A stretch of DNA of 57,389 bases from Candidatus Nitrosopumilus sp. (GTDB taxonomy: Archaea; Thermoproteota; Nitrososphaeria; Nitrososphaerales; Nitrosopumilaceae), in contig JAHELP010000003.1 of NCBI GenBank assembly GCA_024644105.1, positions 1-57,389 of the forward strand, in the 5' to 3' direction. A program made the position numbers and the translations under genes. The notes beneath the pieces were generated by a model. That model did not search any database, was not told the DNA's origin, and was given only the letters and a program-made list of their open reading frames with translations. This document shows, piece by piece, positions 53,608-55,597 of the stretch (positions are counted from its first letter, which is position 1; every line of letters begins with the position of its first letter).

Positions 53608-53730
53608 GCCTTCATTGAATTCACTTTAGAGGTTGTTGAAAAATTAAATAAAATCATTCATGGTTTGATAAGGATCATGAGTAAGCACATCCATCAAGTT
53701 TAAATTATGAGATCGCAATACACATTCGCC

Positions 53731-53769
53731 GTAACAAGGTTTGTAGGCAAAACCTAGTTGGATAAAACC
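53731..53769 (+). other. Sequence resembling the 3' end of 16S rRNA
   Basis: GTAACAAGGT is followed by GTAGG, AACCT and TTGGAT in the same order and nearly the same spacing as the conserved 16S end (GTAACAAGGT-...GTAGGGGAACCTGCGGTTGGATCA). The preceding AATACACATTCGCC recalls the 16S TACACACCGCCC block. The helix 44 sequence that separates these blocks in 16S is missing, and the anti-Shine-Dalgarno CCTCC is not present. Confidence 0.35.
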
Positions 53770-53872
53770 ACACGGAAAGAAAAACCTTCATGAAGATTAA
53801 TTAAAATTTGATCACCATAAGGACTAGTTGTTTTAGTTTTGGCTAGAACAAATTATCATAGTAATGAAAGAG

Positions 53873-53945
53873 GGCCCTCGAGGGGAATCGAACTCCTGTC
53901 CGAGGATCCACAATCCTCTATACTAACCACTATACTACGAAGGCC
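53873..53945 (-). tRNA. tRNA-His (anticodon GTG)
   Basis: On the minus strand the acceptor GCCTTCG/CGAGGGC closes seven pairs. An extra G-1 is encoded opposite C73, the identity mark of tRNA-His. The anticodon stem GAGGA/TCCTC holds TTGTGGA with anticodon GTG. The T-arm AGGAG-TTCGATT-CCCCT has one A-C mismatch. No CCA is encoded. Confidence 0.9.
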
Positions 53946-54010
53946 ACAAAAAAAGGAATTTGTTCATCCAGTAATAATCTTTAAGATTGTGTTGAAAATT
54001 GGGCTGTAGA

Positions 54011-54018
54011 TTTATTAT
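54011..54018 (+). promoter_or_regulatory. TATA box of the 26-aa peptide gene
   Basis: TTTATTAT is centred about 25 bases before the ATG at 54040, the spacing seen at leaderless genes across the window. Confidence 0.5.
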
Positions 54019-54039
54019 TGACCAAATAGAATCTAAAGT

Positions 54040-54120
54040 ATGCGTTTATGGTGGGCTGCAATGGGAGCAACAATTGCAGTGGTATGGATTGGAGTAAACT
54101 ATCTTCTCCCATGGGTATAA
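54040..54120 (+). CDS. 26-aa single-helix membrane microprotein
   Basis: The frame MRLWWAAMGATIAVVWIGVN-YLLPWV encodes 26 residues: one charge at the N-terminus and then a continuous Trp-rich hydrophobic helix long enough to span the membrane. A TATA-like box sits at leaderless distance. Codons (GGA, GCA, ATT, GTA) match neighbouring genes. Such peptides are often small subunits of membrane complexes. No partner gene is adjacent; CorA lies 127 bases downstream with its own upstream sequence. Function unknown. Confidence 0.55.
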   Translation: MRLWWAAMGATIAVVWIGVNYLLPWV

Positions 54121-54247: not shown

Positions 54248-55270
54248 ATGCGAAAGGGTTTCATCACAAGTAGGCTACGTTCTAACAGGAAATCATTAGA
54301 AGTTCCTGTGGAAAATAAGATCGAGACGATACAAGGCGAGAAATTTGTTTGGATTGATTTACAAAATCCAGATAGAAATGATGTTGAAAAATTGGCTAAA
54401 AAATACAATTTCAATACTTTAAACATTGAAGACTGTATGACCAAATTTGAGCTTCCAAAATTAGATAGTTATGATGATCATTTCTTTGTAATTCTCCATT
54501 TTCCCCCACTGGCACAGAAAATAGGAATTTCAAAAAATAGTCAGTTATCCATTTTCGTGGGAAAAGATTTCCTCGTTACAGTTCACCAAGGTGATTTGAA
54601 CCCACTTGTTGAGTTAGTAGAAATTTGTAAAACCAGTTCTGATCAGCATAGAAAGGACAGACTATTAGGAAAATCTTCAGGATTATTACTTCACGAAATA
54701 TTGGATGTTCTAGTAGATGATCTTTTACATACTTCTAGGAAGATTATTGCAAATCTAGATGATCTGGAAGACAGGGTTTTTGATGAAACAAAGCCTGTGG
54801 CAAGAAGTATTGCACTACTTAGAAGGGAAATTAACAGATTGAGAAGAATAGCTAATCCATTAAAAAAATTCGTTCTAGAAATTGCAAAAAATGTTAAAAG
54901 GTTTTCAGGTAGCGAAGATGATGAATTAACATTATACTATGATGACGTTATTGACCATATTGACAAAGTAATTGAAACATTAGAAGAGTCAAGAGAGACC
55001 ATGGAAATTTACAAGGATGTTGATTTTGTGTTAAGTACTGAGAAAACAAACAAAGTTCTAGCAGTATTGACAATAATTTTCACTTTAGCAATTCCATCAA
55101 CAGTGATTGGGACATTCTATGGAATGAATGTGGATTTACCTGGAGGAATTGGAACTGATTTAATGGTTTTAGGGCCATTTACCACATTCATTATTGTAAT
55201 TATTGCATCAGCAATACCTGCAATCATGATGTTTGTCTATTTCAAGAAATTAGGTTGGATCAGTAGCTAA
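54248..55270 (+). CDS. corA: CorA family divalent metal transporter
   Basis: A 340-aa CorA-type channel for Mg2+ (or Co2+/Ni2+). The N-terminal 270 residues are the cytoplasmic alpha/beta and long-helix funnel (DLEDRVFDETKPVARSIALLRREINRLRRI). Two C-terminal helices carry the pore signature YGMN (about residues 290-293, FYGMNVDLPGG) and end in a basic tail. Length is normal. A CTTTAAAT box about 32 bases upstream is the probable promoter. Confidence 0.94.
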   Translation: MRKGFITSRLRSNRKSLEVPVENKIETIQGEKFVWIDLQNPDRNDVEKLAKKYNFNTLNIEDCMTKFELPKLDSYDDHFFVILHFPPLAQKIGISKNSQLSIFVGKDFLVTVHQGDLNPLVELVEICKTSSDQHRKDRLLGKSSGLLLHEILDVLVDDLLHTSRKIIANLDDLEDRVFDETKPVARSIALLRREINRLRRIANPLKKFVLEIAKNVKRFSGSEDDELTLYYDDVIDHIDKVIETLEESRETMEIYKDVDFVLSTEKTNKVLAVLTIIFTLAIPSTVIGTFYGMNVDLPGGIGTDLMVLGPFTTFIIVIIASAIPAIMMFVYFKKLGWISS

Positions 55271-55336: not shown

Positions 55337-55597
55337 ATGGGTAAAATTAGAATTAGAACAGGTAGAGGCACTGGAACTATAGAAGTTGACGATGATGCAT
55401 CCAAGTGGTCTGGAGACGATTTTAAGAAGATTCAGGAAGCAAGGAAAAAGGCAGCATCTAATAGAACAGTATCTTCAGGTAGAGGAACTGGTTCGAGAAA
55501 ACTAGGTGATACACCTGAATCTAAAACAACAACCAGTACAAAAGGAAGAACCATCAGTACAGGTAGAGGAACTGGTTCGAGAAAAAGCAAAAAGTAA
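55337..55597 (+). CDS. Small basic GRGTG-repeat protein
   Basis: An 86-aa hydrophilic protein with three GRGTG motifs: TGRGTGTIEV near residue 8, SGRGTGSRK near 48 and TGRGTGSRKSKK at the end. The middle (DDASKWSGDDFKKIQEARKKAAS) is a possible charged helix. The basic, glycine/serine-rich repeats look like nucleic-acid-binding tails. I do not recognise a family. A 26-base exact DNA repeat underlies the last two motifs. Convergent with transaldolase across a T-rich gap. Confidence 0.65.
   Translation: MGKIRIRTGRGTGTIEVDDDASKWSGDDFKKIQEARKKAASNRTVSSGRGTGSRKLGDTPESKTTTSTKGRTISTGRGTGSRKSKK
55475..55500 (+). repeat. 26-bp direct repeat, copy 1
   Basis: Identical to 55560-55585; it encodes the SGRGTGSRK-type motif. 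A related shorter copy (15 of 16 bases) lies at 55359-55374. Confidence 0.95.
55560..55585 (+). repeat. 26-bp direct repeat, copy 2
   Basis: Identical to 55475-55500, 85 bases away. It encodes the C-terminal GRGTGSRK motif. Confidence 0.95.

Follow-up and report, generated by a model that had tools for sequence, protein, structure and literature searches.

A 26-residue, tryptophan-rich membrane peptide conserved across the Nitrosopumilaceae is a candidate accessory subunit of a membrane complex

A tiny open frame in the window (the whole stretch of 57,389 nucleotides analysed here) is almost certainly a genuine gene, to judge from sequence comparison across relatives. It is a microprotein gene, vertically inherited and specific to the Nitrosopumilaceae, and its 26-residue product is predicted to be an accessory subunit of a membrane complex, a reading to which we attach a probability of roughly 0.7. 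The gene and its surroundings are listed in Table 1.

Table 1. Coordinates in the window of the peptide gene, its promoter elements and its neighbours
Feature	Position	Strand	Remarks
tRNA-His(GTG)	53872..53944	-	Divergent, 95 bases from peptide ATG; constant neighbour
Conserved promoter block	53995..54027	+	About -45 to -13; consensus AAttAgnCTGTAGATTTATTATtrActAg
TATA element TTTATTATT	54011..54019	+	-29 to -21 from ATG; conserved in nearly all loci
Peptide gene, ATG to TAA, 26 aa, single TM	54040..54120	+	Frame reading, orthologues, dN/dS
CorA-family Mg2+ transporter gene, own TATA	54248..55270	+	Pfam CorA 5e-71; frequent downstream neighbour, replaceable

The frame is complete, and its product, MRLWWAAMGATIAVVWIGVNYLLPWV, carries Arg2, four Trp residues (positions 4, 5, 16 and 25) and a single hydrophobic span whose best 18-residue Kyte-Doolittle mean of 1.73 suffices for a single-pass helix of ~18-20 residues, with aromatic residues at both ends of the membrane-spanning helix. 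The earlier note had described just such a complete 26-residue frame, with an N-terminal Arg, four Trp and one transmembrane helix, and each of these features is confirmed. Taken alone, a tiny hydrophobic frame is weak evidence for a gene: the window contains 325 ATG frames of 20-60 aa, of which 44 reach a Kyte-Doolittle mean of 1.6 and two are both Trp-rich and hydrophobic. The peptide frame is lifted above chance because it is conserved, as seen in its matches across the family, in its dN/dS of 0.19 and in its synteny.

A protein search with the peptide yields matches at E<=1 in 143 of 200 same-family genomes, representing 20 of 22 genera, and profile and synteny searches fill in the rest, so that each of the 22 Nitrosopumilaceae genera sampled has an orthologue. 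In one genus, g9, matches that were weak at first become strong by the profile and synteny route (36 of 37 genomes, E about 1e-26). With representatives in every sampled genus of the family, the gene is an old one. Its sequence evolves under purifying selection, with a pooled dN/dS of 0.19 over 484 pairs among 81 distinct sequences; the shifted frames of the same DNA give pN/pS values of 0.70 and 1.67. Relatives keep the proposed frame, the +1 frame is interrupted by a stop in all 81 distinct sequences, and the third codon position of the peptide frame carries the least information. The earlier note had taken the frame for a real gene and had named a homologue search, Ka/Ks and a check for frameshifts or stops in close relatives as ways of testing it; the family-wide orthologues, the selection on the protein, the intact frame and the conserved synteny all bear this out.

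The orthologue consensus is MRxWWxAMxIxxxLTWxGxNYLLPWK. Across 24 aligned family sequences, W4, M8 and P24 never vary, and conservation is also strong at G18, L22 and V/T15. Core conservation shows a periodicity of 100 degrees and is concentrated on one face of the helix (moment p = 0.028), a modest signal that would point to packing against another helix.

Upstream of the frame is a conserved block from which the peptide is presumably expressed, and the gene very probably has its own leaderless promoter. The TTTATT of TTTATTATT begins at -29, within the 25-30 bases before the ATG that are typical of a leaderless TATA element, and the TTTATTAT core lies ~29-30 bases before the ATG (extremes near 32) even in distant genera. 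Mean information is 1.20 bits per site within the block, compared with 0.54 in the sequence further upstream and 0.26 in that downstream. These results uphold the earlier note's claim that the gene has its own promoter with a TATA-like box. Its further claim, that the spacing is the one used by leaderless genes in this DNA, is plausible because CorA, too, has a TTTAAATTT some 31 bases ahead of its start codon, but a count of TATA-like elements over 45 genes of the window is too noisy to serve as proof. The block has its only exact match in the window's genome at the peptide gene, and no regulon is visible across that genome, since there is no second exact copy and the other matches carry 3 mismatches, at about the frequency of controls. 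A search of the open literature for ribosome profiling or mapped start sites in a Nitrosopumilus found neither.

The genomic setting of the peptide is also conserved. A divergent tRNA-His lies upstream at 99 of 105 distinct loci, at a spacing of 81-130 bp (203 in one case); of the six exceptions, two are loci whose upstream sequence is cut short. This head-to-head pair, held at a near-constant distance throughout the family (53872-54040 in the window), could conceivably share a bidirectional promoter. The ancestral order of the slot comprises genes for a 102-aa Rieske-like protein, an 89-aa protein, a methyltransferase and a 115-aa protein, then tRNA-His, the peptide, CorA or a divergent CorA paralogue (Pfam CorA 1.8e-17) and a TYW1-like gene, all names other than CorA and tRNA-His being readings of the sequences rather than the outcome of individual scans. 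Departures from this order occur at several points. The window has two inserted genes ahead of tRNA-His, one cation-exchanger-like and one of 173 aa; in genera g6 and g9, an inserted alcohol-dehydrogenase-like gene separates tRNA-His from the peptide, and CorA is absent there; in g15 the peptide has been relocated to a site next to ribosomal protein L21e, and in g11 none of the genes of the ancestral slot accompanies it. CorA or the divergent paralogue adjoins the peptide in most genera, either co-oriented or convergent, and depending on the genus the position after the peptide holds one of two different CorA-family genes or none (L158, L159, L180, L222 and others). Transporter paralogues have apparently been exchanged at this one site, and because it is replaceable downstream of the peptide, CorA is probably not its partner. 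Two other elements of the window are a gene for an 86-aa protein with repeated GRGTGSRK-like motifs (55337-55597), 63-79% conserved across relatives, and a segment at 53727-53780 (cgtaacaaggt..gtagg..aacct..gttggat) that by eye resembles the 3' end of 16S rRNA and has no rRNA match in Rfam.

The peptide has been lost in one clade of pelagic marine Nitrosopumilus and in most genomes of one small-genome genus (g19), with AmoA and a CorA kept in both. Of the 79 named CorA loci, 14 are without it but retain CorA and the 115-aa gene; by their titles, most of these 14 come from pelagic marine Nitrosopumilus. Eight g1 genomes show a clean absence of the peptide (tRNA-His is kept in both of the two checked), a CorA of 76-84% identity remains in 8 same-genus genomes without the peptide, and most g19 genomes likewise have no peptide and retain the CorA paralogue at the slot. 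In several peptide-less loci, what looks like a remnant of the promoter block (AATTAGCCTCAAATTAATAATAAAATAG) can be recognised by eye between tRNA-His and CorA (L047, L048, L055 and L057, at about 1300-1420). Among the peptide-less genomes tested, AmoA is present in 7/8 from g1 and 4/5 from g19, which is not the pattern of an obligate AMO subunit; since these genomes keep AmoA, the peptide is accessory and not a core component of AMO. AmoA is also missing from the window's own draft genome (90% complete), and absences in drafts therefore mean little.

Within its order the peptide is apparently confined to the Nitrosopumilaceae, as far as the sampled sequences indicate. In three other families the equivalent slots lack it, and outside the Nitrosopumilaceae a strong match occurs in a single genome, G331, assigned to family f12. 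This occurrence was set aside as probable contamination: no other f12 genome carries the peptide, and the neighbouring 115-aa protein is present in two copies that are 94% identical to each other and <=37% identical to those of other f12 genomes. The matches lie on two near-duplicate contigs of Nitrosopumilaceae type (L141, L142) inside a genome binned to another family.

The peptide takes a different form in g9. There, the orthologue is about 42 residues long, with an extra tail like CVPMENAPCVSFL, and is homologous to the short peptide (hhalign probability 98%, E 2e-13); this long form is near-universal in the genus (36/37 genomes) and duplicated. A second free copy adjoins amoA in three genomes (L174, L337, L339; AmoA Pfam 1.9e-103 in L174), in varying orientation relative to amoA. 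In seven genomes (L143, L145, L328-L331, L341), a copy forms the anchor at the N-terminus of a domain of blue-copper type, whose ligands follow the pattern C-x3-GH-x4-M; the Pfam Copper-bind cut-off is reached by four of these fusions (L143, L145, L328, L330), the other three being recognised by their similarity to those four. Fusions to beta-propellers occur in two genomes (L144, L333, L334). Standalone peptide and fused anchor are 66% identical (E 1e-20); L143-L145 were part of the search profile and so match by construction, whereas L328-L331, L334 and L341 were outside it. Blue-copper domains work outside the cytoplasm. Because the homologous g9 helices anchor extracytoplasmic domains from the N-terminal side, the peptide is likely to be a single helix in the N-in/C-out orientation. 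Duplicated, and fused as an N-terminal anchor to unrelated exported domains, the g9 gene offers a rare visible case of a microprotein turning into an anchor.

A possible mode of action can be outlined. The helix would insert N-in/C-out in the membrane, where its conserved face (W4-M8-T11-V/T15-G18-L22) would pack against a larger membrane protein, and the peptide would act as an accessory, non-obligate subunit. The earlier note had offered a small subunit of a membrane complex as one of two possible roles, and this is the favoured candidate. The most likely partner may be the copper-dependent electron-transfer machinery of ammonia oxidation, that is, AMO, blue-copper carriers or the terminal oxidase, with the peptide helping to dock or stabilise a carrier or complex. 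This choice is favoured because accessory status, topology, blue-copper fusions and amoA-side copies combine, and we make it tentatively, at somewhat less than even odds, the function being read from fusion and neighbourhood in one genus. The copper-carrier fusions of g9 hint at a role in the respiratory membrane; the partner link comes from that genus, and the fusions may only reflect reuse of a handy signal anchor, since beta-propellers have also been recruited. Doubtful as a whole is the fuller picture, in which the electron-transfer chain of archaeal ammonia oxidation has an accessory helix, new to science and present throughout the family, that gave rise, by duplication and fusion in g9, to the membrane anchor of blue-copper electron carriers.

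Several other explanations bear on the same observations. The peptide could be an accessory subunit of some membrane complex unrelated to copper, such as complex I, ATP synthase, Sec or the machinery of membrane-protein quality control. Many small single-helix proteins are subunits of membrane complexes, and the conserved helix face, the interfacial Trp residues and the dispensability evident from the losses all suit such a role; yet PDB profile searches reveal no similarity to any solved small subunit, and no genomic link to complex I, ATP synthase, Sec or quality control was found, leaving this assignment somewhat unlikely. Less probable again is that the peptide binds, regulates or stabilises the neighbouring CorA in the manner of MgtS. 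CorA or its divergent paralogue does lie beside it in most genera, but the peptide persists without an adjacent CorA in g6, g9, g11 and g15, and CorA is retained without the peptide in the 8 same-genus genomes and at the 14 of 79 named loci, which is not how a dedicated partner would behave. The constant neighbour is instead tRNA-His, and the linkage to CorA therefore looks like shared position. The earlier note's other proposal, a regulator, is disfavoured on these grounds if CorA is meant to be the target, as the CorA next to the peptide can be exchanged, turned round or missing, and CorA also occurs without the peptide.

In many Nitrosopumilus-type loci the short frame lies 24-110 bp before the CorA frame, a position that would suit a leader peptide or upstream ORF in control of the gene behind it, but CorA carries its own TATA, and elsewhere the next gene differs or is convergent while the amino-acid sequence of the peptide stays conserved; the convergent and CorA-less arrangements largely refute such control, which is very improbable. 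Equally remote is a hydrophobic peptide of the type I toxin kind, compatible with its size and hydrophobicity and at odds with one syntenic copy in most genera, vertical inheritance and strong purifying selection; no Rfam antisense RNA family lies over the gene. A chance open frame riding on conserved promoter DNA might be suspected from its very short length and from the presence in the window of 325 ATG frames about as long, and is refuted, scarcely any likelihood being left to it, by the codon-position pattern, the dN/dS, the retention of the frame and the conservation of the protein between genera that are deeply diverged.

Ammonia oxidation in the sea is dominated by Nitrosopumilaceae, whose AMO and respiratory complexes do not yet have a settled list of subunits. 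One small subunit missing from that list could be a conserved membrane protein of 26 residues, of the sort that gene callers usually pass over. The peptide also shows clearly how a microprotein can come to anchor larger exported proteins, and its loss in the pelagic clade supplies natural pairs of genomes, with and without the gene, for probing its role.

Comparison with known systems gives several partial likenesses. Pfam and NCBIfam contain no family that matches the peptide even at E 10, the PDB has no meaningful match with either peptide family profile and, queried with AmoA, no archaeal AMO structure, and no paper on the peptide was found in the open-access literature, most subscription papers lying outside that search. 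CoxIIa, the small subunit of the Thermus ba3 oxidase, is likewise a single helix (34 residues) with a similar-looking W-x-G-V stretch; this resemblance, noticed by eye, was rejected at an hhalign profile probability of 3.5% over 12 columns and with no PDB match. CydX/YbgT and other single-helix subunits of respiratory enzymes are of similar size, with a Trp-rich N-terminus, and the peptide differs from them in its lack of a Pfam or NCBIfam match. MgtS-type microproteins act on Mg2+ transporters in bacteria, binding and regulating or stabilising them. The peptide is similarly a tiny membrane protein encoded near an Mg2+ transporter gene, but its link to CorA is not kept family-wide, and each occurs without the other. 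AmoX, AmoY and AmoZ are accessory subunits of archaeal AMO, AmoY (9.6 kDa) and AmoZ (12.8 kDa) being reported as highly conserved in ammonia-oxidising archaea and amo-linked (PMC10030591). These too are small helical membrane proteins, and the second g9 copies of the peptide lie beside amoA in three genomes; unlike AmoY and AmoZ, however, the peptide is about 3 kDa, is restricted to one family, is unlinked to amo outside g9 and is missing from some AmoA-bearing genomes. The window peptide has neither a copper domain nor the Cys-containing tail of the g9 form, which distinguishes it from membrane-anchored blue-copper proteins of the plastocyanin/azurin family, although the anchor helix of seven such proteins in g9 is its homologue.
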